The position numbers and the translations under genes were made by a program. Source: a virus. From it: a DNA stretch of 43,524 nucleotides. Every line of letters starts with the position of its first letter. Within the stretch, counting starts at the first letter, position 1. The DNA is taken from the IMG/VR virus record IMGVR_UViG_3300017917_001312, positions 1 to 43,524 of that record. The stretch is one strand, 5' to 3'. Shown here one piece after another: positions 2,747 through 43,524 of this stretch. Under the pieces are notes generated by a model that saw only the letters and a list, made by a program, of their open reading frames with translations, did not search any database and was not told where the DNA came from.

Positions 2747-3391
2747 TTATCTTTTGTTGAAACTAGGAGCACTTGTGTATCCTGTGCGTTTTTCTTGTTT
2801 TAGTTGTACAAGTTTGCCGATGTCACTCTGTTTCAATAGCTCTGCCCAGGCCACTTGATTTCTTGTAAAAATCTTTACCAGTTCCTCAAAATCTTTTTGG
2901 CTTTCTGGATCGTCACCGCCACCGTTTACAGCCGATACAAATGCATCAGGTGGAGTAGTAAATCCTAGGTAACTGGCATAATGAAACAGCTGGCCGTAAA
3001 TGTGTTGCCATCCGTCATCACTACCAGAAATTACCGCACCAAATACTTTGCCGTATAAGGGTGCCACGTCATTTTTGATTGACCAATCATCAAAGTAGCC
3101 ACAGCGTTCCAACACTGCCTGTATGTAACTACTGTAAGTACCCCACCAGATGGGTGTGGCCAAGATCAATCCGTCGTGAGTTAATATTTCTTTTAGAACC
3201 GCGGTCATGTCATCAGGTGACCCATCTCTGCGAACTATGTCAACTCCGGGTTCAAAATCAAGATCTCGTAGAACTATTTCTGTAGTTTCTACATTGTATT
3301 TTTTAAATTCAGCTCTAACCCTATCAACTACTTGTTGAGTGTTTGATTCTTTGGGCGGAGTCAAGCTACCATTTAATATAAGAAATCTCAT
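2747..3391 (-). CDS. NADPH-dependent FMN reductase / flavodoxin-fold protein
   Basis: 214 residues. The N-terminus MRFLILNGSLTPPKESNTQQ is the phosphate-binding loop after beta-1 of the flavodoxin-like fold. LILATPIWWGTYSSYIQAVL (about 75-94) is the conserved aromatic FMN loop of NAD(P)H-dependent FMN reductases, and GKVFGAVISGSDDGW is the following strand. The family reduces FMN or small electrophiles with NAD(P)H in the cytoplasm. The C-terminal tail ending in SAPSFNKR goes beyond the fold and echoes the SPSFNKG of the next gene. Its ATGA start overlaps the stop of the upstream 165-aa gene. It shares the head-protein block with Dps. Confidence 0.75.
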   Translation of the reverse strand: MRFLILNGSLTPPKESNTQQVVDRVRAEFKKYNVETTEIVLRDLDFEPGVDIVRRDGSPDDMTAVLKEILTHDGLILATPIWWGTYSSYIQAVLERCGYFDDWSIKNDVAPLYGKVFGAVISGSDDGWQHIYGQLFHYASYLGFTTPPDAFVSAVNGGGDDPESQKDFEELVKIFTRNQVAWAELLKQSDIGKLVQLKQEKRTGYTSAPSFNKR

Positions 3392-3885
3392 TTTTTACTC
3401 TTGTTTCCCCAGTTCTTGGCACCGACCTTGCGGCAACGCACTAGAGCACCTGATGCATAAGCCGACGGCCATACCTTGTAGCGACTCTTTACTTTGTGAT
3501 AACAAGCATCTTGTTTTTCATTTAATTCTTCTTCGCGAACCTTGGTAGCAACATTCTTGGCTGGACCACGACGTTCTGGATTGGGATCTTCTCTACGCTT
3601 CTTGGCGGCAGCTGCTGCACGTTTCTTTTTACCTAAGGCATGTGCTTTACTTTGTGGCAGGCACTTTGGCTTGCCTTCTGAATCACTTCCTCTAGCACAG
3701 TCACCACGGATCTTGCCGTCAGGACCAAAGCGAACCCACTTTTCTTTGAACCACTTGCGTAGATCTTCTTCCATGTGTTCTTCGCTCACAGGCACACAGT
3801 TAGGAACCATATGGTCACCTTTCTTTTTCATGCCTTTCTGCTGATAACCCTTCCAGCAGGCTTCTAGTATTTCTTTGTATCTCAT
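3388..3885 (-). CDS. Lys/Arg-rich DUF5872-like protein, probable head-internal protein
   Basis: 165 residues, strongly basic. The order is: leader MRYKEILEACWKG (I-L-E followed by A, like a prohead-protease site); a module DLRKWFKEKWVRFGPDGKIR with CARGSDSEGKPKCLPQSKA that I recall as DUF5872; a long KKKRAAAAAKKRR basic helix; and a second module with ACYHKVKSRYKVWPSAYASG and ALVRCRKVGAKNWG. Both modules recur in phage and giant-virus proteins and look like small Cys-containing nucleic-acid-binding units. The gene overlaps both neighbours by ATGA. Packaging is inferred from the leader and context. Confidence 0.6.
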   Translation of the reverse strand: MRYKEILEACWKGYQQKGMKKKGDHMVPNCVPVSEEHMEEDLRKWFKEKWVRFGPDGKIRGDCARGSDSEGKPKCLPQSKAHALGKKKRAAAAAKKRREDPNPERRGPAKNVATKVREEELNEKQDACYHKVKSRYKVWPSAYASGALVRCRKVGAKNWGNKSKK

Positions 3886-6287
3886 TCAAATGCCTTGGCC
3901 AATTGATCTATGCGTTTTGCGGCTTCTAATAAACGCGACTCTGTTATGCCTTGGTCTGCTACAGTAGATTCAAATGTTTCACTTTCATTCTTCTTACGCC
4001 CAGCACAGTGAGCACGTTGGCTAAAACCTTTAGGGTTAGAGCAGTTAATACTGTCTTTGTATTTCTTACTCCACTTTTCATCAACTTGCTCTTCACCCAA
4101 GGTGCTAAACATACCGCCTGCACCTAGTTCTTCTGCTGCAACCTGTTGTTTGATGTTGTCAAAGTAGTATTCACTACTAGCAAAGCCTAGGCCGTGTGTT
4201 TTAGCATAACTCTTGCCGGCGGTGTGTGTCTTGAAACGCTTCTTGATCTGCTTGGTCTCAGGATCATACACAATCCAACTACCGTGATCTTCTTTAATAC
4301 CTTGTGCGGGCAGGTCAACGCCATCTTGCCACTCATAGTTAGGAACAAATTCGTCTTCGATAGATAACTCAATTTCAGCACCAGGATTGCGACGTGCGAC
4401 ACTATTGGCATCGCTAATAATGGTAGCTAGTTTGTATGGCTCGTTACGAGTGTAGTTGTGTGAACGACCCTTGCCTTCAGGGTAGATCACTTTGATTCTA
4501 TGGCTTTTGAACACAGGGGATTTTTTATGTTCAGCTTCTTTTTGTGCGGCACGATAACCCTTACGGAATTCATAATAACCGTCACTGTTTTCAGGGTGTG
4601 GGTTTTTGTAAGGTTTGTTGCTTTCGCCATCGGCATAGCCCGCTTCAAACGGACCCTGGTTAAAGCTAATCTCATCTATGTGCTTAGGTTTCTTACCAGC
4701 CTTCTTCATAGCAATCGCAATGGCGGCCTGCTGTGCTGGCGATCCTGCTTCATTTGTTTTGTAGATAGGTGCTTGGCCTTGTGCTTGCCAATATTTGTTT
4801 CTATCTTGATATGTTTCACCAGACTTTAATTTTTTAGGAGGATCAATTGTAATTTTCATTGGAGGAGGAAACTCTCCAAATCCTGCTTCTTCCATTTTAT
4901 CATAGTCAGTGGCAGCAATAGTAATAACACTAGGGTCACGACCATTAGCTTTGAATTTGGCTCGTAATTTGTTTGCTACAGCTTCTGCATGATCTTCGTT
5001 TTCGAAGTCTTTCCACTTTTTACCCTTGATAAAAACTGAATAGGGTGTGCGTGGACGGCCTGTGCGTTGAGCCACAATCGCATCGCTCCAACCTTCGTCT
5101 ACTTCGCGAGCTGTGCCTAGAGTAAATGCAGGTTGATTGAGGCGTAGTTTGTCGCTCTTGGTATGAGCAGTACTGTGATATGTTAAATCAAACACACGAT
5201 TACCATCACGGTCTGTGGTTTCTTTGCCAATGGTATAACGACCGTTAGCAATCCATTCTCCAGCACGTAGGCTCTTGGCAGTTAGGGGAATACCTGGTAA
5301 TGGTGTAGCACGACCTTGATCGTCGACCTGATTGCGTAAAGCACTGCGTTTAAAATCGCCTGCGGCCAACAGTTCTGGATCGTTGGCTACTACATCTCCA
5401 GCAATGACCAACTTGGGTTCGCCGTTGATGTTTTCAAGTTTGGCATAAAATGTCTGCTTTGGATCAGCCAACAGATCGGTGGCAAATTTCACATTGAAGT
5501 CAATGGTACTGGACCCAGTTACTTTCTTTTGAGCATTTAGTATGAAGTCGATACGATCGCGGATAGCTTGTACAGCTTCTTCCTTTGATGCGGCTTTTTC
5601 CATAAAGCCCTTGCGATCAATTTCAGTGTGTGCGGTGTACATGCCAGTGTTGCCAAACGGCTTCTTACGCACATAGATCTTGTAGTTCTTGTAAGGCTCT
5701 GCTTCTTCAAAATTCTTGTCAGAAGCTACAGAAATGTATTCGTTTACTTTTTCAGAATTTTTTTTTTGATCGGCTTTGCGTTCAGCTTCGCGACGTGCAA
5801 CATCACTAAGGTGTGTTACTTCACCACGTGGATCTACAGGACGACCTGATTTGGCCTTAGGAACTTTCTTCCATTCGCCTTCTTTGTGCCAAGCATCGTC
5901 TGCACCTTCGTATGTAGGGCCTTCTTTGCCAGGACCACCTTTACCAGCCAACCATTTGGCAGCGTTCTTAACTGTACTGGCTACTGCACCAGCACGTGTT
6001 TGTGGAGTTGCGCGAGCAATCTTTTCTTTCTTGTCCACAATGTCTTGTCCAATGCCAGCTTCGCGTAGTTTGTAATAGCTATCACGTTCAGCTTTGAGTT
6101 CTTGAAATTTTTTCAACAGTCCCGAGGCACTTTCAGGATGACCAGAGTCACGAGCTTTTTTTGCCATAGCAGCTAACTCGTCCATCTTCATATTCAAATC
6201 GTCGATGCGACGTTGTTCTAAACGATCAACTGCGCCTTCTGCGAGTCTACGCTCGTAGTCTGTGTTGAATAAATCAAATACTTGCAT
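3882..6287 (-). CDS. 801-aa mosaic protein of small phage modules, probable head-internal protein
   Basis: Begins MQVFDLFNTDYERRLAEGAV, so an L-A-E/G protease-type site follows a short leader. Next come a Lys/Glu-rich coiled-coil region (20-75) and repeated short modules: TPYSVFIKGKKWKDFENEDH (a DRBM/SPOR-sized alpha/beta unit), FEAGYADGESNKPYKNPHPE with YYEFRKGYRAAQK (like ribosome-modulation-factor-type phage modules), and SKKYKDSINCSNPKGFSQRA with HCAGRKKN (a Cys motif). It ends in a helical LLEAAKRIDQL. No catalytic motif is evident. AAGGA precedes the ATG. Position and leader suggest it is packaged in the head, possibly with the DNA. Confidence 0.6.
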   Translation of the reverse strand: MQVFDLFNTDYERRLAEGAVDRLEQRRIDDLNMKMDELAAMAKKARDSGHPESASGLLKKFQELKAERDSYYKLREAGIGQDIVDKKEKIARATPQTRAGAVASTVKNAAKWLAGKGGPGKEGPTYEGADDAWHKEGEWKKVPKAKSGRPVDPRGEVTHLSDVARREAERKADQKKNSEKVNEYISVASDKNFEEAEPYKNYKIYVRKKPFGNTGMYTAHTEIDRKGFMEKAASKEEAVQAIRDRIDFILNAQKKVTGSSTIDFNVKFATDLLADPKQTFYAKLENINGEPKLVIAGDVVANDPELLAAGDFKRSALRNQVDDQGRATPLPGIPLTAKSLRAGEWIANGRYTIGKETTDRDGNRVFDLTYHSTAHTKSDKLRLNQPAFTLGTAREVDEGWSDAIVAQRTGRPRTPYSVFIKGKKWKDFENEDHAEAVANKLRAKFKANGRDPSVITIAATDYDKMEEAGFGEFPPPMKITIDPPKKLKSGETYQDRNKYWQAQGQAPIYKTNEAGSPAQQAAIAIAMKKAGKKPKHIDEISFNQGPFEAGYADGESNKPYKNPHPENSDGYYEFRKGYRAAQKEAEHKKSPVFKSHRIKVIYPEGKGRSHNYTRNEPYKLATIISDANSVARRNPGAEIELSIEDEFVPNYEWQDGVDLPAQGIKEDHGSWIVYDPETKQIKKRFKTHTAGKSYAKTHGLGFASSEYYFDNIKQQVAAEELGAGGMFSTLGEEQVDEKWSKKYKDSINCSNPKGFSQRAHCAGRKKNESETFESTVADQGITESRLLEAAKRIDQLAKAFE

Positions 6288-7224: not shown

Positions 7225-7665
7225 TCATGCCCTTGCCGCTTTCAAATAACTCTTTAACTGCCACATATACTTGCCATGTAAACTCATTTGATCAGCAGCA
7301 AAGTTTGCAATGTCATCGCGACCTGCTTCGGTAGCGGCGTCAAACACCTGCTTGGTCATGTCTTTCATGGTTTGTGTATCTGCGAGTAATTCTTCTAACA
7401 TTAATCGGGCACGAGGAACTTTGATTTGTCCCTGTATTTGTGTTAATTCCTGGAAGCGTTCAAAGCTTCCTGGTGCGTATTCTTCTGAAGTACGGATATA
7501 TTCAGCAATAGGGTCAACTGCATCAAAAGCAGCTTCATAAATGTTGCTGAAAAATTCATGTAGTTCGCCAAAGTCAGGACCTTCCACGTTCCAATGAAAC
7601 ATGTGTGCCTTTAAATAGTAGGCAAATTGACTGGCCAAGTAAGTTTTTAATAAATCTGCTAACAT
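7225..7665 (-). CDS. dps: Dps-family ferritin-like protein
   Basis: 146 residues, a four-helix ferritin-like protein. The Dps intersubunit ferroxidase ligands are all present at the canonical spacing: His24 (FHWNVEG), His36 (ELHEF), Asp51 and Glu55 (VDPIAEYI), that is +12, +15 and +4 as in E. coli Dps. Dps dodecamers oxidise Fe(II) with H2O2 and store Fe(III), preventing Fenton damage; some bind DNA. There is no long Lys-rich N-terminal tail here, so non-specific DNA binding is doubtful. The TAATG start overlaps the upstream 68-aa gene. Its place inside the head-protein block is unusual and suggests virion association, but the protein itself shows no clear leader. Confidence 0.88.
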   Translation of the reverse strand: MLADLLKTYLASQFAYYLKAHMFHWNVEGPDFGELHEFFSNIYEAAFDAVDPIAEYIRTSEEYAPGSFERFQELTQIQGQIKVPRARLMLEELLADTQTMKDMTKQVFDAATEAGRDDIANFAADQMSLHGKYMWQLKSYLKAARA

Positions 7666-7871
7666 TATTTCTTCCGCTTTTTGTATTTCTTGTACTCTGC
7701 GGGCGTATTAGGCGTCGCATCGTCAGTAGTGTATTTAGTGCCCGAAAAGAAAGATCCGCCATTTCTTGAAATCATGCCGCCTAGCGGAGCCGCTACAGTG
7801 GCAATACTGCCTGAGCCGGTGGCACCAGCTGACGCATTTTCCGTTAAATCAACAAATTCATGCAGTCGCAT
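7665..7871 (-). CDS. 68-aa small protein with capsid-targeting-like leader
   Basis: MRLHEFVDLTENASAGATGS begins with the block's shared M-R-x-x-E-F leader and has L-T-E/N, a prohead-protease-type site, at residues 9-12. The rest is Gly/Ser/Ala-rich (SIATVAAPLGGMISRNGGSF) with a basic tail KKYKKRKK. I recall similar small proteins in T4-type phages but know no function. AAGGA lies 8 nt before the start. The gene overlaps the 3' end of the upstream 100-aa gene by 14 nt. Confidence 0.65.
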   Translation of the reverse strand: MRLHEFVDLTENASAGATGSGSIATVAAPLGGMISRNGGSFFSGTKYTTDDATPNTPAEYKKYKKRKK

Positions 7872-8762: not shown

Positions 8763-8945
8763 TTATTTAATTTCTCTTACTGAGCTGATTAAAGATTTAG
8801 CGCCGTACTGTTGTTTTAGGATCTGACGTGCCATATAAATGTCTTTGGCAAATACACTCACATCAGTAAACACAGGATGTGGTTGAGTGATCTTGACTCG
8901 TGCTGTAAAGACTTTAAAGCCAGCAAATATTTCTTGGGCTCTCAT
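8763..8945 (-). CDS. 60-aa small protein with MRAQE leader
   Basis: The start chosen is the ATG at 8943-8945, which overlaps the upstream stop (ATGA) and gives MRAQEIFAGFKVFTARVKIT, the same MRAQE leader as the upstream 66-aa protein. The remainder is a compact alpha/beta sequence (VFAKDIYMARQILKQQYGAK). Function unknown. An upstream in-frame start would add nine residues but loses this match. Confidence 0.6.
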   Translation of the reverse strand: MRAQEIFAGFKVFTARVKITQPHPVFTDVSVFAKDIYMARQILKQQYGAKSLISSVREIK

Positions 8946-9142
8946 TTCTTTTTGCCGCCCTTCATATTTGCACACCAGTGATACATTTTGCCTTTTTCTC
9001 CACCATACTTACGAGCTTTAGCTCGTAAACTTGAGACACTACCTTTGCAACTAGCACCGGCCTTTTTTACACGTCCTGGACGACTCTTGCCTTGGACCCG
9101 GCCATCGGCAAAATTTTCTGTAACAAACTCTTGGGCTCTCAT
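8942..9142 (-). CDS. 66-aa basic Cys-containing protein with MRAQEFVTE leader
   Basis: MRAQEFVTENFADGRVQGKS: the leader resembles the T4 internal-protein targeting sequence MKTYQEFIAE, with V-T-E/N as a possible cleavage site. The rest (SRPGRVKKAGASCKGSVSSL ... KARKYGGEKGKMYHWCANMK) is a short basic module with two Cys that I recall from several T4-like phages. The cleaved product would be about 57 residues and very basic, fitting a DNA-associated internal head protein. Confidence 0.65.
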   Translation of the reverse strand: MRAQEFVTENFADGRVQGKSRPGRVKKAGASCKGSVSSLRAKARKYGGEKGKMYHWCANMKGGKKK

Positions 9143-9144
9143 GA

Positions 9145-12100
9145 TTATCTTACCGTTGCACGACGAACATCAAAGCGTTCTTCGTAGCCAGGTTCTGCAC
9201 CCAAGCTCTGTAGATACTGCATGGCCTGTGTTCTAGCTGCTGTACCTTCTAAATTGCTGAAGCGATGTATCACATTGCCCGAATCTCGGTCTACAATTTC
9301 CCACTCCGGAACACCCTTGGCATCTACTGCCATGGACTGTGGTGATTGTTGCGTTTGTTTAGGACGCTGAACAATGTTCTTGGCCAACTTGGCACGTGGG
9401 CTTAGAACTTTTTCTTTGGGTTCGGCATTGTAGGGTTCAATGAAGAATGGAATTACATCACCGTATTTTTCATAGGCCTGTTCGACAGCTTGATTGCGTG
9501 TGTCAGCTTGAATAATTTCTAATGTTTCTCTATTATCGCCGCGAAGCACCCGCCATTGGTTTGATCCTTCACCTACATCACGCAGAGTATAAGCACGATC
9601 AAAATCTTGCACACTACTACCAGGACTTACGGACTTCTTGGCACGTTCATGTGCTTCTTCATAATCAAAGTTGTTGTATTCTTGACCTGCAACTGGTTGT
9701 CCAGTGGAGTTATTATACAACTTCCAATTGGACTTTTTCTCAGGCACTTCTTTACTCAAGGTCTTTTCAGCCCACTGCTTTTTAAGTTGTTCTTTGTCAA
9801 TTTCTCCAGTGGCAAACTGTGTGAACAAGTTGAGTGCATCATCACCTTGGGGATTGATCAGCTTGTATAACTTCTTGGCATACTCTTTACGCTCTAGGTC
9901 AGGGCGCCCTGCTAGATACATGGCATAAGCATAGCGCATCATGGTGTTTTCTAGTTTACCTGGTTCGGCATCGCCTTCGGCCAACCAGTCACCACCTGCA
10001 CTACGAAACTCAATATACTTGCCCTGCTTGTGAGCACTAGTGTATTTGCCTTCACCAGTGCTTTTAACCAACTCACGTTCAGCCAACTCCAACAAGTTGT
10101 TGCGCAACAATTCCATCACGGAAGCAATATTACGCTCACTGCTGGCACGGCTACGAATATCCTTCATGGCAGCTTTGGTATAGGTATTTGATTCGCGGCC
10201 AAACTGTTTGAGCACGTATTCATCACCTAGGAACAAGATCAACTTCAAGTAGTCAACACGTCCTTCTTTGTAGGGAATACTCACGCCCATGTGCAGGCCT
10301 GTTGATTGATTGGTGTAGGCATTGCCATCACCATTGGCCCAGTCTGTTACTTCTTCTAGTTTCTCTAAGGCTTGTTTGAGTGGCATAGGCGGACTAACAA
10401 TTTCTAATCCACAATCTTCTTCATCGTCGGGATCTAAACTTGAGTCAGGTTCTACTATCCATAGGCCAGGCTTGCGTGTAGCTGAATGATAACCACTACT
10501 AACTTTGACCGGCATATCTATGGCATCGTGCAAGCTATCGCCAATTTCATCCCAACTACGGCTTCCGCCATAAACATCAGAACCTGTAAAATATGGCCAA
10601 CTTAAATTAAATGTGTCAGCGATGTCACTCATCCAACGCCAACCTTGATCTGAGAAGAAGCTGCTGTCATCATCCATAACAAAGTCATCGCGGAAGTTTT
10701 GCAATACTTCGTCGTAGTTGCTGTCTTCGGCAGCCAAGCATGATTCTACTTCTTCTGTTAGGATTTCGTCAGCACCTTCAGCAGCTTCTTTGTATTTGTC
10801 CAGCATGTCTAACTGTTCATCTGATAACTCACTACCTTTGATTTCGCCGTTTTTGCGACTTTCACCTAGAGCAATAATAGCTTCGGCTTGTTCGTCGGTT
10901 AGTTCCATGCCATCTACCAACATGGCCTGCAAGCGATCATGCCAAGACTGTTGTTCTAAGAAATAGTCGCGAATCAGTTCGTCTCGCTCGTCTCTCCATG
11001 AATCATACATTTGCTCATCGTGCCACTCGTAGTAGGCTTCGTCCAGCTTTTCTTCTAAGTCATTGCGTTCTCTACGGCTGAGTCCATAGCCGTATTCATC
11101 GTTGCTAAAAAACTCAATAATTTGACTTAGACTGGTGCAACGTTCGTCCATGTCATAGTCGGGTTCCATTTCACCTGAATCTTCATCACGCTGTGTGTCA
11201 CGGAAGATCAGTTCAGCTTCAAAGCCACACTGTATGCCTTCGGCTTCGGGACTGTTGGCAAACTGTTGTAAGTTACTGGCAGCCATGCGCACTTCATCTA
11301 GCTCTTCTGATTCTACTATCGTGCCTTTACGTTTAAACTGCGCTAGTTCTAAACTTAGTTTTTCAAACAGGCCATTGGGTTTAAGCTGTTGCGGCTGACC
11401 TTGACTATTTGTTTTAAGTTTTAATTTGTTTGCTTCTCGACCCACCGCCCCGGGACGAACATCTTTCGTCAGAGCCATTACATAGCGTGGATCTTTAGCC
11501 TGCTTTTTTGTTGGTATGTATCCTGAAGCACTTTCAGTAACTTCATTGCCATCCAGGTGTTCGGCTTGTCCTGCTGCAAAGAAGTCAGGATGTAGTCTAG
11601 CATAGTCACGCATTAATATACCAGCACGTGCATTGGCTTCATTTTCCCAAGGGCTACCAGTTTCACCAGCATCTGGACCCATACGAGAACCATCACGTTC
11701 GTGTTGATGTTTGTGTGTTAGTTCGTGTGCTACTGTGCGTAACACGTCCATGATATGGCGCTGACCCCAGGCCACTTCTAATAAATTACGATCATTGATA
11801 TAACGACCAAATGTTTTGTGAACCACTGCCCATTGCGGATCTTTACGCAATTTGATTTCAGGCATGTGTTCTAGTTTTAATTCTTTACTACAAAAATCAA
11901 TAAAGTCTTTTAATACTTGTTCATCGGTGGGTGCAGTATCTATGTCATCGTCAACCATGCAGGTTGTAGGATTAGTTCCGTCGGGACTCAGGCCCACTTC
12001 GGTCAATTCAGACTCGTGTCTAAATCCGTATGTGAATACTGAATGTGGTCGACGACGTTCTTTAAGACTGAGCTCTTGATTTTTGGCTTCTATTCTGGCA

Positions 12101-12762
12101 TCATGCAATTTTTTAAGCACACCCTGACTGCGCAGGATTTTAAATGCTAGATTTTCAGGACCAAATTCGCCGTGTTGTTCTAGGCCGGTTTGACGCATAC
12201 GCTTGATCTTACGGGCCATGCGATCCATCTTTTCACGACTGCCAGTTTTAACAGCACGTTCAATAGCATGTCCTACTGTTTCAAACTTGTTGCGTGTAGC
12301 AGTGTCATCCACAGTGGCTCGGGCTCTGCGTGGAACCTGTAACCATTTATCCTGTAGCAGGCTATAAGTGCCCTGACTCACCGGTGGCTTGTCTGCGGCT
12401 TCCACATATAGTTCTACATCAAAGCCTCGAATTTTAATATCATGTGTGTCGTTGTACTGTGCTTTTTTGGCATCAAACAATTCACGGTACACAGGATCTT
12501 CGGGTTGATCAACCACAAGATGTAGATCAATATCACTACTGGGAGTATATGTATAAGCAGCATTGGAACCACTTATAGTAATGTCTTTAAGAGCTAGATC
12601 TGAGATGCCTAGACTTTCACGAAAATCTTCTGCAATTAATAATAATTGAGCACGGACATCGTCACGTAGGTGTTCATTTGAGTCCCATAATTTAGGGTTT
12701 AAATGATCATTGAACTTGACAGCATCGTCAAGATTGTAGGCATCTAATTCTTGAATATTCAT
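9145..12762 (-). CDS. 1205-aa multidomain protein: nucleotidyltransferase, zincin protease, amidoligase-like
   Basis: The start is set at the ATG 12760-12762 (MNIQELDAYN), 5 nt after an ATAAATA late-promoter motif; an upstream in-frame ATG would place the promoter inside the gene. Residues 62-84 hold a nucleotidyltransferase signature (GSNAAYTYTPSSDIDLHLVV: Gly-Ser, then Asp77 and Asp79). Residues 340-375 hold a zinc-metalloprotease motif HELTH (346-350) with a downstream WENEANA glutamate. From about 510, CGFEAELIF, a distant EIVSPPMP, GLHMGVSI and IEFRSAGGDW fit the amidoligase (glutamine-synthetase-like) family. Between them, L-T-E/V (253-256) and V-T-E/S (408-411) look like prohead-protease sites at the domain borders. 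Probably a packaged, processed polyprotein. Confidence 0.75.
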   Translation of the reverse strand: MNIQELDAYNLDDAVKFNDHLNPKLWDSNEHLRDDVRAQLLLIAEDFRESLGISDLALKDITISGSNAAYTYTPSSDIDLHLVVDQPEDPVYRELFDAKKAQYNDTHDIKIRGFDVELYVEAADKPPVSQGTYSLLQDKWLQVPRRARATVDDTATRNKFETVGHAIERAVKTGSREKMDRMARKIKRMRQTGLEQHGEFGPENLAFKILRSQGVLKKLHDARIEAKNQELSLKERRRPHSVFTYGFRHESELTEVGLSPDGTNPTTCMVDDDIDTAPTDEQVLKDFIDFCSKELKLEHMPEIKLRKDPQWAVVHKTFGRYINDRNLLEVAWGQRHIMDVLRTVAHELTHKHQHERDGSRMGPDAGETGSPWENEANARAGILMRDYARLHPDFFAAGQAEHLDGNEVTESASGYIPTKKQAKDPRYVMALTKDVRPGAVGREANKLKLKTNSQGQPQQLKPNGLFEKLSLELAQFKRKGTIVESEELDEVRMAASNLQQFANSPEAEGIQCGFEAELIFRDTQRDEDSGEMEPDYDMDERCTSLSQIIEFFSNDEYGYGLSRRERNDLEEKLDEAYYEWHDEQMYDSWRDERDELIRDYFLEQQSWHDRLQAMLVDGMELTDEQAEAIIALGESRKNGEIKGSELSDEQLDMLDKYKEAAEGADEILTEEVESCLAAEDSNYDEVLQNFRDDFVMDDDSSFFSDQGWRWMSDIADTFNLSWPYFTGSDVYGGSRSWDEIGDSLHDAIDMPVKVSSGYHSATRKPGLWIVEPDSSLDPDDEEDCGLEIVSPPMPLKQALEKLEEVTDWANGDGNAYTNQSTGLHMGVSIPYKEGRVDYLKLILFLGDEYVLKQFGRESNTYTKAAMKDIRSRASSERNIASVMELLRNNLLELAERELVKSTGEGKYTSAHKQGKYIEFRSAGGDWLAEGDAEPGKLENTMMRYAYAMYLAGRPDLERKEYAKKLYKLINPQGDDALNLFTQFATGEIDKEQLKKQWAEKTLSKEVPEKKSNWKLYNNSTGQPVAGQEYNNFDYEEAHERAKKSVSPGSSVQDFDRAYTLRDVGEGSNQWRVLRGDNRETLEIIQADTRNQAVEQAYEKYGDVIPFFIEPYNAEPKEKVLSPRAKLAKNIVQRPKQTQQSPQSMAVDAKGVPEWEIVDRDSGNVIHRFSNLEGTAARTQAMQYLQSLGAEPGYEERFDVRRATVR

Positions 12763-22596: not shown

Positions 22597-23214
22597 CTAG
22601 ATGACTTTTACCGCAATATCTTGTTGGGCATAATCATGGCGATACTGCTCGGGCGGCGATTCTATACCCAATACAGCAGCCAAGGCTTGATTATTTCCAG
22701 GAACATGCCCGGTGTATCGGTCCCAGGCTGATAATATATCCATATTTTGACGATCAATACAGTGTGCCATTCTAGCATGATTTTGATAATAGGGACGATA
22801 ATCAGGATAGGTAATATCAAAGCCGCCGCAACGCACCCACCAACCAAGACAGGCATCGTTGCCGCGATGAACTAGCACAACAGGCGACTCTGGCCACAGA
22901 TCTTTTATGTAATCAATGTGGTGTGCTAGAGTATGTCCTTTGATTATTCTCACTCCTGTGCCAGAAAATGGCTGATCAAAAATGCTTTCTAGTTCTGCAC
23001 GAGTTTTCATATGCAAATCTAGCGGCAATTCAAATTCCATACCAGGATCAAAATAACTGCCTTGATGCATGGGAGAACCGTTGTAGGCTACATCACTTGC
23101 ATACACTCTATTGCTGTTGTCGTCTGAGCGATCGATGCTGTTGCTGTAGTAGATATTTTTGGCCACGCTGGACCACTTGGATCCAGGTGCGCCGATTACA
23201 AAGATATACTTCAT
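22597..23214 (-). CDS. P-loop / sulfotransferase-like conserved phage protein
   Basis: 205 residues. MKYIFVIGAPGSKWSSVAKN has a P-loop-like turn after beta-1, similar to the PAPS 5'-phosphosulfate loop of sulfotransferases. Later, a strand PVVLVHRGNDACLGWWVR resembles the second conserved region. I recall a similar unknown in T4-type phages. Sulfotransferase activity is speculative. The ATGA start overlaps the stop of tctC. Confidence 0.5.
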   Translation of the reverse strand: MKYIFVIGAPGSKWSSVAKNIYYSNSIDRSDDNSNRVYASDVAYNGSPMHQGSYFDPGMEFELPLDLHMKTRAELESIFDQPFSGTGVRIIKGHTLAHHIDYIKDLWPESPVVLVHRGNDACLGWWVRCGGFDITYPDYRPYYQNHARMAHCIDRQNMDILSAWDRYTGHVPGNNQALAAVLGIESPPEQYRHDYAQQDIAVKVI

Positions 23215-24176
23215 TCTTTGGTCAAGTCCACTCGCTGGCTCAACGGAATCCAGGTTGCTCGCAATTTTTCAATGCCTCTAGCAAAGCCAGCCGGAGTAGT
23301 TTCACTCCGGTCAACAAAGATCAAGTTGTCATGATAGTACTGTTTGATTTCGGGTGATTCAAGCGCAGGTGTAAAGTTGCGCTGATACCAAGCAACTATT
23401 TCGCTAGAAGTACCAGGAGGAAGTATCAAGGCCCAGGCAGCAAACACATCAATGTAGTGTCCGTTGACCTTAATAGGTTCTACTTTGGGATAGTAAGCAA
23501 CTTTTTGCTCGCCAGTAACACCAATCAACTTGACTTTACCTGCATCAATTAGAGGCTTGGCAATGGCCACTGGCATGATGCCAAATTCAAAACCAGCATC
23601 ACTGGCTGTGGCTGTTACTGCTTGCAAGGGTCCTGGGAACTGACTTGTTTTGACTAGATCTTTGTTGCCCTTGGCAATATACATGAAGTATTCAAATGTC
23701 ATGCGGTGTGCGCCGCCACCAACTGCTACTGTAACAGGTTTGTTTGTGTGCTGAACATAGTCAACCAACTCAGGCACTGTGTTGATCTTGCTCTTGGGAT
23801 TGGCCACAATGCACAAGGGACTCTTGCCCATGCCCATTACATTGGTAAAACTGTTGTAAGCAAATTTCTTTTGATTCTTTTGCCAGATATCGTTGGTAAC
23901 AAATGTGCTCATGTAACTGGGGATAGCAATAGTATATCCGTCGGGCTTGGCATCATACAAGTGATTCATAGCAATAACACTATCGCCTCCTGGCTTGAGT
24001 TCAATGATAAAATTGGCATTGGGATTGTTCTTTTGAACAACTGCACTGATGGCACGGAATCCAACTTCGTTGCCGGATCCAGGCTGATTACCAATGATAA
24101 CAGTAATGGGTTTGGTAGGTTCCCAGGCAAAAGCCAAAGCAGGAACCAGTAAGAGTATAGCTAAAATGCGTTTCAT
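23211..24176 (-). CDS. tctC: TctC/Bug-family periplasmic solute-binding protein
   Basis: 321 residues with a signal peptide (MKRILAILLLVPALAFA). The mature part has the Bug/TctC signatures: PITVIIGNQPGSGNEVGFRA, a PGGDSVIAM loop, the strand KPDGYTIAIPSYM, and the C-terminal WALILPPGTSSEIVAWYQRN. In bacteria these capture carboxylates or other small metabolites for tripartite tricarboxylate transporters. No membrane partner (TctA/TctB) is in the window, so it would have to work with a host transporter or act otherwise. AAAGGA precedes the ATG. Its presence suggests capture from a host rich in Bug genes (often Betaproteobacteria). Confidence 0.88.
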   Translation of the reverse strand: MKRILAILLLVPALAFAWEPTKPITVIIGNQPGSGNEVGFRAISAVVQKNNPNANFIIELKPGGDSVIAMNHLYDAKPDGYTIAIPSYMSTFVTNDIWQKNQKKFAYNSFTNVMGMGKSPLCIVANPKSKINTVPELVDYVQHTNKPVTVAVGGGAHRMTFEYFMYIAKGNKDLVKTSQFPGPLQAVTATASDAGFEFGIMPVAIAKPLIDAGKVKLIGVTGEQKVAYYPKVEPIKVNGHYIDVFAAWALILPPGTSSEIVAWYQRNFTPALESPEIKQYYHDNLIFVDRSETTPAGFARGIEKLRATWIPLSQRVDLTKE

Positions 24177-40394: not shown

Positions 40395-40943
40395 TTACAA
40401 ACGTTCGTTACAAACTGACCAGTCGATGATTTTCCAGATGTTGTCTAGATAACGCTCTTTGTCGCTTTGATAGTCCAAGGCCCAGGCATGTTCCCACCAG
40501 TCTACTAGAACACAGATATCTGTTCTAACCTGATGATTTGGGATGGTTTTAATCGTGCCCGATGTGCTAAGATATACCCAACCCGATCCCTGGATGGCCA
40601 TGGCCACCTTTTTAAACTCATCTTTAAAGTCTTCATAGGTTTTGAAGTTGCTTTCAATTAGTTCTAGCACAGCACCTTTAGGACGGTTGGCACCTTTGGG
40701 AGCCTTCAACTGTGGAAAGAATTTGTTATGTAAAAACGATCCAGCACGGTTAAAGTTGGCATTGCCTTCACCGGCATTGTAGCGTTTGGCATAGCCTTTG
40801 GCTAGGTGCTCGTAGTGATAGTCAATGGTAGCACGACTCATCACAGGCTCTAGGGCCTTTTCTGTATAGGGCAAGGGTGTAGTTTCCAGCTTGGCTGGTC
40901 TAGTGCTGGCTTCTACGAGATTGATTTGTTCACGCATGTTCAT
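40395..40943 (-). CDS. sod: Fe/Mn superoxide dismutase with N-terminal capsid-targeting-like leader
   Basis: 182 residues. Metal ligands conserved: His43 (DYHYEH), His72 (FLHNKFF), Asp148 and His152 (VDWWEHAWALDY). The usual second-shell His30 of bacterial enzymes is replaced by Leu, though the equivalent Tyr34 is kept. The catalytic core follows an extra leader MNMREQINLVEASTRPA, where L-V-E/A (9-12) is a prohead-protease-type site; cleavage would leave a normal-length enzyme. It would convert superoxide to H2O2 and O2. The start is 5 nt after ATAAGTA. Confidence 0.92.
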   Translation of the reverse strand: MNMREQINLVEASTRPAKLETTPLPYTEKALEPVMSRATIDYHYEHLAKGYAKRYNAGEGNANFNRAGSFLHNKFFPQLKAPKGANRPKGAVLELIESNFKTYEDFKDEFKKVAMAIQGSGWVYLSTSGTIKTIPNHQVRTDICVLVDWWEHAWALDYQSDKERYLDNIWKIIDWSVCNERL

Positions 40944-41771: not shown

Positions 41772-42094
41772 TTGAATAAGATCATTGCCATTAAGGTTGC
41801 TTGGATCATAAAGCCTATGCTGATAGTAATAATGTTAAGTGTGTCTTTCAATACTATAGCACGTCCAAACAATAAAAACAAGCTGGCCCACAAGAACATG
41901 ACCATGTCCAAGCTAGGAACTTTGTCGCTGAGTCCAGTCATTAGGGCAAGCAGGGTAGGAATAGTAGCACAGTTAATTACAACGATAGCCAACCAACCTA
42001 GGGTGTCTGCCGAAATCTTGGGCAGGTACTTGTTTAAGAATTCATTTACTGCTTCACGATTAATATTAATATTGTTTTTGATATCGATATTCAT
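41768..42094 (-). CDS. 108-aa membrane protein next to wall hydrolases
   Basis: From the ATG at 42092-42094 with AAGGAG upstream; TAATG overlap with the hydrolase. Charged N-terminus MNIDIKNNININREAVNEFL, then about three hydrophobic segments (TLGWLAIVVINCATIPTLLA, MVMFLWASLFLLFGRAIVL, IITISIGFMIQATLMAMILF). A holin or other inner-membrane role is possible given the two wall hydrolases before it; not proven. Confidence 0.65.
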   Translation of the reverse strand: MNIDIKNNININREAVNEFLNKYLPKISADTLGWLAIVVINCATIPTLLALMTGLSDKVPSLDMVMFLWASLFLLFGRAIVLKDTLNIITISIGFMIQATLMAMILFK

Positions 42095-42642
42095 TAGATA
42101 CTCTCCTTGTAAAAGATATGACGGCCAATTTTGGTAATTTCGGGTTTGCCCCATCTTGGATTGACATAGTCCGCATGATAATACATGGCGTCTTTCATGC
42201 TGGGCAATCTAAAACCTTCGAGCAGGACTTTCTTTGCTACTTCTTCTGCTTCACGATAGTGCGCTGATGCAATTGGTCGGAGTGCAGATTTACCATCACA
42301 AGTCCATGAAAACTGACAGATAATCTTTTGATATATTACATTTTTAGAATAAACCACGTCGCAAACATCACGGCCAAACTTGCCATCGGCTACACGATTT
42401 AGCGTGACCTGTGCCACAGCAACCTTGCCTTCGAATGGCTCAAAGCCGGCTTCGTGATAGATGTTTTTAGTCAAGCAGGCCAACTGCTTGGTACGGTCTT
42501 CGGCTGAAATAAATCCTTGACGTGCGGCTTCGTTAGTTGAGCGCAAATAGTCCAAGCGATTTACTGTTACATGATACAGGGCAAATGCCACTGCCATAAA
42601 ACCCACTACTCGTAATGCTGTATTAGTTTGTGCAACCTTCAA
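42094..42642 (-). CDS. SleB/CwlJ-like cell wall hydrolase 2, TTG start
   Basis: 182 residues. Start TTG (42640-42642) with AGGAGG 5 nt upstream; no nearby ATG fits. MKVAQTNTALRVVGFMAVAF plus ALYHV is a membrane anchor or uncleaved signal. ACLTKNIYHEAGFEPFEGKV with VAVAQVTLNRV holds the conserved Glu, then CDVV, CQFSWTCDG, MYYHADYVNPRW and IGRHIFY: the Hydrolase_2 (SleB) family, which cuts peptidoglycan. Paralogue of the upstream gene. Promoter and ribosome site lie in a hairpin (42649..42702). Confidence 0.85.
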   Translation of the reverse strand: MKVAQTNTALRVVGFMAVAFALYHVTVNRLDYLRSTNEAARQGFISAEDRTKQLACLTKNIYHEAGFEPFEGKVAVAQVTLNRVADGKFGRDVCDVVYSKNVIYQKIICQFSWTCDGKSALRPIASAHYREAEEVAKKVLLEGFRLPSMKDAMYYHADYVNPRWGKPEITKIGRHIFYKESI

Positions 42643-42706: not shown

Positions 42707-43360
42707 TTATTCGTAGAAGATATGGCGGCCTGTGCGGGCTACTAATTGCTTGGTTTTAGCCCAGATAGGACGGATTCCACTGTTGTGAAAAAACAACGCT
42801 GACCCATATTTGGCACGTTCTTCTTCGTATTCGCCTTGGGCTAGACGTTGTGCAATTTCTTTGCTTTCGACCCAACGCTCATCGTCGGATTTGGGATTGC
42901 GAGCATAGCCGGCGCAGGTCCACGAAAACTGGCAAACAGGAACCTGTTGTACAACTACTTCCTTTTTCTCTACCATTTCGGGACGACCAAAGTAGCCAAC
43001 TTGAACTACTTCATTCCGTTTAACTTCGCGGGCTTTGACAACCACGGTGCGAGCTTTGACCACATCACATACTGACTTGCCAAAGCGACCATCCTGTGCG
43101 CGGTTAAGTGTGACAACACCTACCGCAATTTTGCCTTCGGTTGATTCGCCGCCGGCTTCATAGAATATGTTTCTTGCCATACACTCAACGTCCCGATCCG
43201 ACAGGAATGGTGTGGCAATCATATTAACAGTGCGCTCTACAAACTCTGTAGTTTGACGAATAACTGTGCCTGTCAATGTTGTTTCTGTTACTTTTACTTC
43301 TTGTGCTACAACTTGTGTACTACCTACTGCTAGTAATAACGATATGAATAAATGTCTCAT
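42707..43360 (-). CDS. SleB/CwlJ-like cell wall hydrolase 1, secreted
   Basis: 217 residues from the ATG at 43358-43360 (AGGAG upstream); an earlier in-frame start would put 37 residues before a clean signal peptide MRHLFISLLLAVGSTQVVAQ. Core ECMARNIFYEAGGESTEGKI, CDVV, CQFSWTCAGYARN, ALFFHNSGIRPIWA, RTGRHIFYE matches the SleB family. It has an extra Val/Lys-rich insert of about 30 residues between CDVV and CQFSWTC absent from its paralogue. Exported to the periplasm, so it may act on the wall before or without holin action. Confidence 0.85.
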   Translation of the reverse strand: MRHLFISLLLAVGSTQVVAQEVKVTETTLTGTVIRQTTEFVERTVNMIATPFLSDRDVECMARNIFYEAGGESTEGKIAVGVVTLNRAQDGRFGKSVCDVVKARTVVVKAREVKRNEVVQVGYFGRPEMVEKKEVVVQQVPVCQFSWTCAGYARNPKSDDERWVESKEIAQRLAQGEYEEERAKYGSALFFHNSGIRPIWAKTKQLVARTGRHIFYE

Positions 43361-43524
43361 GCTCGTTCTCCTCTGCGTAATACTGTACGCTTCAGCGGAT
43401 ACCCAGGATGGGCGCAAGGACAAGTGTGAGTGTAAGATGGACGCAGACAAGACCTCGGGCCTCAATGCCATACTCTCTAAGCGCGGTTTTGTTTCTCCCC
43501 GGGCTCATACCATTTGTCAATGAA
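43361..43524 (-). other. Left-over 3' end of an upstream gene, two competing frames
   Basis: One minus-strand frame reads FIDKWYEPGEKQNRA to a TAG at 43477-43479; another stays open as far as a TGA near 43395. Both are entered from the window edge. Codon and residue make-up cannot decide. Between 43361 and 43476 a small hairpin GCGTA/TACGC (about 43375-43390) is seen but no clear promoter. Confidence 0.3.

Follow-up and report, generated by a model that had tools for sequence, protein, structure and literature searches.

The window analysed here, the whole 43,524-nucleotide IMG/VR record IMGVR_UViG_3300017917_001312, is a 43.5-kb fragment of an uncultured virus and also encodes ClpB, DnaJ-like, PhoH-like, clamp-loader and endolysin genes. 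A gene at 9145..12762 on the minus strand (as are all window features named below), encodes a polyprotein of 1205 residues counted from the ATG; the open reading frame (ORF) is confirmed and orthologues exist. Three predicted enzymes, a nucleotidyltransferase, a zincin metalloprotease and an amidoligase, are joined in this chain with smaller modules, and the borders between them carry motifs of the kind cleaved by the T4 prohead protease.

The Pol-beta-type nucleotidyltransferase spans residues 1-240 (12043..12762). The superfamily signature, G-S...D-x-D followed by a third acidic residue, is present in 58 of 58 sequences, with G65, S66, D77, D79 and E117 invariant; Pfam NTP_transf_2 matches 56 of the 67 alignment members, the window protein alone scoring 20.3 bits, slightly under the curated cut-off of 21. 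A disordered linker, residues 241-275 (11938..12042; predicted local distance difference test, pLDDT, <50 over most of 245-274), leads to the zincin, residues 276-395 (11578..11937). Here the HExxH helix (HELTH; H346, E347, H350) and the downstream glutamate (E373) typical of zincin-like metallopeptidases are invariant in 67/67 sequences. Next comes a mobile 58-residue module, SASGYIPT...GLFE, residues 411-468 (11359..11532), which is separate from the amidoligase and was not found in cultured phage records. The glutamine-synthetase-like Amidoligase_2 domain, residues 491-1000 (9763..11292), clears the Pfam cut-off (34.6 against 22 bits, E 7e-8) and is matched by 57 of 57 alignment members; its G-x-E-x-E, E-x-x-S-P, T-x-x-H and R motifs are conserved in invariant columns. 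The remaining C-terminal region of about 205 residues (1001-1205; 9148..9762) varies in length among relatives and, on inspection, shows W-x-[VIL]...TG-like units.

Sequence searches of solved structures returned no credible relative for any domain of the polyprotein. AlphaFold2 yields confident models for residues 1-403 (mean pLDDT 82, with a disordered stretch at ~245-274) and 480-1000 (mean pLDDT 87.5, first ten residues disordered). Foldseek places AAD(9)/AadA on top for the nucleotidyltransferase (E 1.5e-3, with a low TM-score over the two-domain model), together with MNT nucleotidyltransferases; jannalysin is among the fold matches of the zincin (E ~0.1); and the amidoligase resembles glutamine synthetase/YbdK, glutamine-synthetase-like matches reaching E 5e-3. 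The three placements are coherent, albeit weakly so, with best E values of ~1e-3 to 1e-1 and low TM-scores. Judged by their folds, the predicted enzymes may carry out nucleotidylation, proteolysis and peptide-bond formation. A sequence-only reading of this DNA had described a chain of these three enzymes with L-T-E255/V and V-T-E410/S at the domain borders; the ORF, catalytic residues, Pfam matches and orthologues bear out the chain, the models agree with the three folds, and both motifs lie at those residues. Its start of the amidoligase after E410 has to be moved: the border is L-D-E490/V, with the 58-residue module in between. Likewise, the proposed division into three enzymes holds for the enzymatic domains and needs the module and the C-terminal region as further parts.

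Full-length relatives were first recognized in two loci (L002, 1411 residues; L003, 1448 residues); scans with the 58-residue module and the zincin then found 67 and 80 loci, respectively. About 60 orthologues from uncultured phages keep the nucleotidyltransferase-zincin-module order, in most cases followed by the amidoligase, and range from ~500 to 2560 residues, with further modules inserted between the domains. Cultured phages encode the domains separately: nucleotidyltransferases stand alone in cyanophages, Cr30, Molly and Lak phages, S-SRM01 and B23 have zincins, and Atu_ph07 has an amidoligase (AUZ94978) near the portal gene.

The evidence for processing comes from the borders. The 1205-residue protein contains 25 [LIVM]-x-E motifs and their density is not higher in linkers than in domains; thus, two L-x-E-like motifs alone carry no weight. 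The density comparison is itself unrevealing because the "linkers" include other folded modules, and border-anchored tests were used instead. At the amidoligase border, [L/I]-x-E falls in a single alignment column in 35/35 contexts, each from a distinct relative; the candidate site follows E490 (ELDE/V; 11293..11295). P3 is Leu in 34 contexts and Ile in one, whereas the P2 residues vary. A DNA-level recombination site behind the motif was considered and rejected for P3, which is encoded by all six Leu codons as well as ATA and ATC; P3 is thus selected in the protein. The P1 codon shows a mild bias, GAA in 50/53 compared with 79% overall. At the border of the 58-residue module (EVTE/S, after E410; 11533..11535), 42/42 contexts that are dissimilar upstream have the glutamate, 0/42 have D, K, Q, N, R, S, T or G in its place, and [LIVM]-x-E is found in 31/42 against a background of 4.7%; P3 is L, V, I or M here, sometimes Q, T or A. 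Two further candidates lie after E255 (ELTE/V; 11998..12000), in the disordered linker, and, with weak support, after E235 (LSLKE/R; 12058..12060), where the nucleotidyltransferase ends. The E255 linker and the E490 stretch both have pLDDT <50, and the [LIVM]-x-E motifs within the zincin (E302, E329) sit in confidently folded parts.

Homology break points tell the same story across the family. Over 1266 left and 2236 right local break points in 87 polyproteins, [LIVM]-x-E rises several-fold exactly at the break, and no such rise is seen for D, K, Q, R, N or S in place of E. Leader-bearing proteins, analysed as a set of their own, repeat the peak (9.9 vs. 0.6 per position). Counts also rise in proteins that were not preselected as cargo or leader-bearing; this group makes an imperfect negative control because it includes further modular proteins, e.g., of the 801-residue type described below. 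At the level of sequence, then, shuffling of modules at conserved [L/I]-x-E borders is shown.

A protease of the type that would match this motif is encoded by a close relative. The 344-kb genome G001 carries an S77 (T4-gp21-type) prohead protease (E 6e-24) among head genes in T4-like order, portal - core - gp21 - gp22-like - gp23, and inspection of its capsid protein reveals K-Y-L-K-E/N near the N-terminus, where a site like that of T4 would be expected. T4 gp21 cleaves after L/I-X-E; an N-terminal capsid-targeting sequence of 10-19 residues, removed at such a site, directs the internal proteins of T4 into the prohead (PMC9026906); the specificity assumed by the sequence-only reading agrees with this. 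Leaders of this type abound near the polyprotein family: 95 ORFs across the loci open with M-x(2-5)-[FY]-[LIVM]-x-E (consensus M-R-A-x-E-F-I-x-E), compared to at most 12 for any residue replacing E. G001 alone gives a weak signal (8 E, 6 G, 5 K), blurred by noise from start codons and spurious ORFs; the multi-locus set is decisive. Stand-alone homologues of the polyprotein domains carry leaders too: zincins begin with MRFKEFLTE/S and an amidoligase protein (in L099) with MRVRHFIAE/AELFE/INM. The cytidylyltransferase SSM1_190 (T4-GC190) of cyanophage S-SM1, which begins with MKKFSAFLNE/A, was detected in purified virions (PMC3037559); the link between its leader and its presence in virions is drawn here, as the part of that source consulted does not discuss a leader.

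Genes next to the polyprotein look like cargo of the same kind. Directly downstream, a 66-residue gene (8942..9142) has a T4-type leader, MRAQEFVTE/NFADG. Its NFADG module occurs in three contexts, in this gene, at the C-terminus of a 601-residue L003 protein after V-K-E, and at that of the L002 polyprotein after L-S-E, always following [LV]-x-E. Leader-like starts are also seen in a 68-residue gene (7665..7871; MRLHEFVDLTE/N) and a 165-residue gene (3388..3885; MRYKEILE/ACWKGY), the latter built of cysteine-containing and basic modules similar to some that recur in cyanophages. An 801-residue protein (3882..6287) is a second modular cargo-like protein, whose L003 version has inserted modules. 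As to a link with packaging or transfer genes, leaders for head targeting occur in this neighbourhood, but the structural head genes of G001 are located elsewhere.

Several further observations concern related proteins. In relatives, leader-bearing cargo proteins adjoining the polyprotein include the 601-residue protein, with an ART-PolyVal-like domain below the Pfam cut-off (L003:11755-13560), and a 663-residue protein with several GNAT domains (L002:14745-16736). A 525-residue protein with the leader MRASEFIVE/S and a family 19 chitinase/endolysin domain (L063:8994-10568) is possibly a packaged cell-wall enzyme. A 693-residue G001 protein with repeated units EGNAFTGxLAKTPKGGKFKVGNKEFTD (G001:125324-127405, in L011) is probably modular cargo as well. 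Cyanophages S-SM2, Bellamy, S-SRM01 and S-SM1 encode modular cysteine-rich and basic proteins of the T4-GC119 type near their terminase genes, with the same small modules and [LIV]-x-E-like borders (L180:2174-4725, L181:2477-4485, L182:2495-4324, L184:22537-24024).

Elsewhere in the window, an Fe/Mn superoxide dismutase (40395-40943; Pfam E 1e-22) has a targeting-leader-like N-terminus, MNMREQINLVE/AS, and is possibly head-packaged. In a cytidine-deaminase-like protein (2027-2743), the C-terminal module SFMGSQCTKDCSGHRAGYAW begins directly after L-N-E, an arrangement with similar counterparts in L002 and L003. Two related adjoining genes (42094-42642 and 42707-43471) belong to endolysin family phrog_938. 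A TctC-family tricarboxylate-binding receptor with a signal-peptide-like N-terminus (23211-24176; Pfam E 2e-22) is unusual for a phage.

The border motif, the S77 protease of the relative, the leaders on neighbours and stand-alone homologues and the virion-detected cyanophage enzyme argue for a head-packaged polyprotein which is probably cut by the prohead protease, combining the targeting of T4 internal proteins with the effectors of polyvalent proteins. The sequence-only reading had proposed such a protein, and the comparison of sequences supports that core strongly; the polyprotein itself lacks a standard cleavable leader. We regard packaging and cleavage of the 1205-residue protein as likely, ejection of the fragments into the host as only somewhat favoured, and their role as effectors as an even call. 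The polyprotein of this T4-like jumbo phage would enter the prohead core, where the S77 gp21-type protease would cut the disordered borders after [L/I/V]-x-E, at E255 and E410, the two sites named originally, at E490, and perhaps at E235, E467 and E484, which probably complete the list. The products, a nucleotidyltransferase, a zincin, a small module, an amidoligase and C-terminal pieces, would stay in the head and leave with the DNA. Once inside the cell they could serve as effectors at an early stage, modifying or cleaving proteins of the host or opposing defences based on nucleotides or proteins. Of these roles, the one on host proteins appears the most likely because nucleotidyltransferases, zincins, ART and GNAT domains are protein-acting classes of polyvalent proteins (PMC5512222).

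Several observations weigh against this interpretation. The polyprotein has no N-terminal leader of ~7-20 residues ending in L/I-x-E: its start, MNIQELDAYNL, is leader-like, and its I-x-E, with the glutamate at residue 5, is not conserved, several orthologues having Q or D there. Val at P3 of E410 departs from the strict L/I of T4. Border contexts and break points are phylogenetically non-independent, and no p-value is claimed for them. The head operon lies outside the 43.5-kb window, the prohead protease being known only from G001, and the late promoter TATAAATA is uninformative, with none in the window and few in the relative. To these are added the flat linker density, the S-SRM01 zincin, which has no leader, and the location of this zincin and of the stand-alone nucleotidyltransferases among replication genes. 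The last point is no argument against packaging, since the gene for the virion-detected SSM1_190 also sits there.

Among the alternatives, the one that survives best, though we consider it unlikely, accepts packaging and cleavage and keeps the function within the head: the protein would serve in the core or scaffold, in DNA condensation or in head maturation, and its fragments would be expelled or degraded instead of acting as injected effectors. The T4 core proteins gp22 and gp67 are indeed cut by gp21 into many pieces that mostly leave the head (PMC9026906), and small, basic modules are numerous in the neighbourhood; a scaffold role would hardly account for three catalytic domains whose active sites are invariant, or for the ART/GNAT neighbours. 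Slightly less probable still is an ordinary cytoplasmic multidomain enzyme of infection, with the [LIVM]-x-E borders a by-product of module shuffling or of preferred linker composition. The unraised motif density and the cyanophage replication-gene neighbourhoods of the stand-alone nucleotidyltransferase and zincin would suit such an enzyme, but not the fixed border positions across dissimilar contexts without any D, K, Q or R signal, the T4-type capsid-targeting leaders on stand-alone forms, or a leader-bearing enzyme from a replication neighbourhood in cyanophage virions (PMC3037559). Least probable is processing of a packaged polyvalent protein by its own zincin, an activity proposed for embedded zincins (PMC5512222) and compatible with the fully conserved active site, because the border motif is that of T4 gp21 and also marks leader-bearing proteins separate from the zincin polyprotein, an S77 protease lies in the head operon of G001, and stand-alone zincins show the same motif behind a targeting leader; zincins acting on other targets could coexist with prohead-protease processing.

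If the polyprotein is indeed packaged and cut by the prohead protease, the enzyme that matures the head would double as the one that releases the cargo. A broader proposal, which we hold to be marginally the better bet, is that T4-like jumbo phages carry combinatorial cargo: polyproteins put together from exchangeable modules, enzymatic or small, with a prohead-protease site bounding each one, would be converted by head maturation into an injected effector cocktail, and new effectors would be acquired by inserting a module beside L/I-x-E. Already under the packaging reading, the short L/I-x-E motif would be a readable code, its leaders and borders predicting which of the many unannotated proteins of jumbo phages and cyanophages travel in the head into the cell, and at which positions they are cleaved. 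It would also open a large group of enzymes as candidates for injection in anti-defence or host takeover, here a nucleotidyltransferase, a zincin and an amidoligase, with ART and GNAT domains in relatives, and would join T4 capsid targeting and polyvalent proteins in one idea.

Capsid targeting with gp21 processing, polyvalent proteins and the three enzyme superfamilies are each known already; a cargo chain of several enzymes whose shuffled modules are separated by conserved prohead-protease motifs did not turn up in the literature searched, which left many subscription papers and preprints out of reach. The domain agrees with Amidoligase_2 (PF12224) in its match above the curated cut-off and its glutamine-synthetase-like fold; sequence searches gave no relative of solved structure, and in Atu_ph07 the amidoligase has a gene of its own. 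The inner-body/ejection proteins of the jumbo phages phiKZ and SPN3US are processed by prohead proteases after x-x-E and ejected (PMC5694885); unlike the polyprotein, they have long propeptides, another residue before the Glu and one mature product each. T4 gp22 and gp67 also yield several fragments after L/I-x-E, as predicted here, but are scaffold proteins without enzymatic domains whose fragments mostly exit the head.

The closest parallels are polyvalent proteins and T4 cargo. Polyvalent proteins (Iyer et al., 2017; PMC5512222) unite at least two, often many, unrelated effector-type domains in one chain, as the nucleotidyltransferase, zincin and amidoligase do here; zincins and nucleotidyltransferases are among them, as are the ART and GNAT domains of the neighbours, and transfer together with DNA has been proposed. 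In that work, Pol-beta nucleotidyltransferases are reported only for conjugative elements, processing is ascribed to the embedded zincin, and the part consulted describes neither capsid-targeting leaders nor prohead-protease borders; by word count, the text of PMC5512222 does not contain amidoligase, unlike the polyprotein. The T4 internal proteins and Alt share with this system the short leader ending in L/I-x-E, on neighbouring and stand-alone cargo genes here, the use of enzymes as cargo and a gp21-type protease, present in G001. T4 Alt is an ADP-ribosyltransferase. In contrast to T4 internal proteins, the polyprotein begins with a sequence that resembles a leader but has no conserved cut site; and whereas each T4 cargo protein stands by itself and is trimmed at the termini, this chain links several enzymes and modules, with the conserved protease motif between them and shuffling at that very motif.

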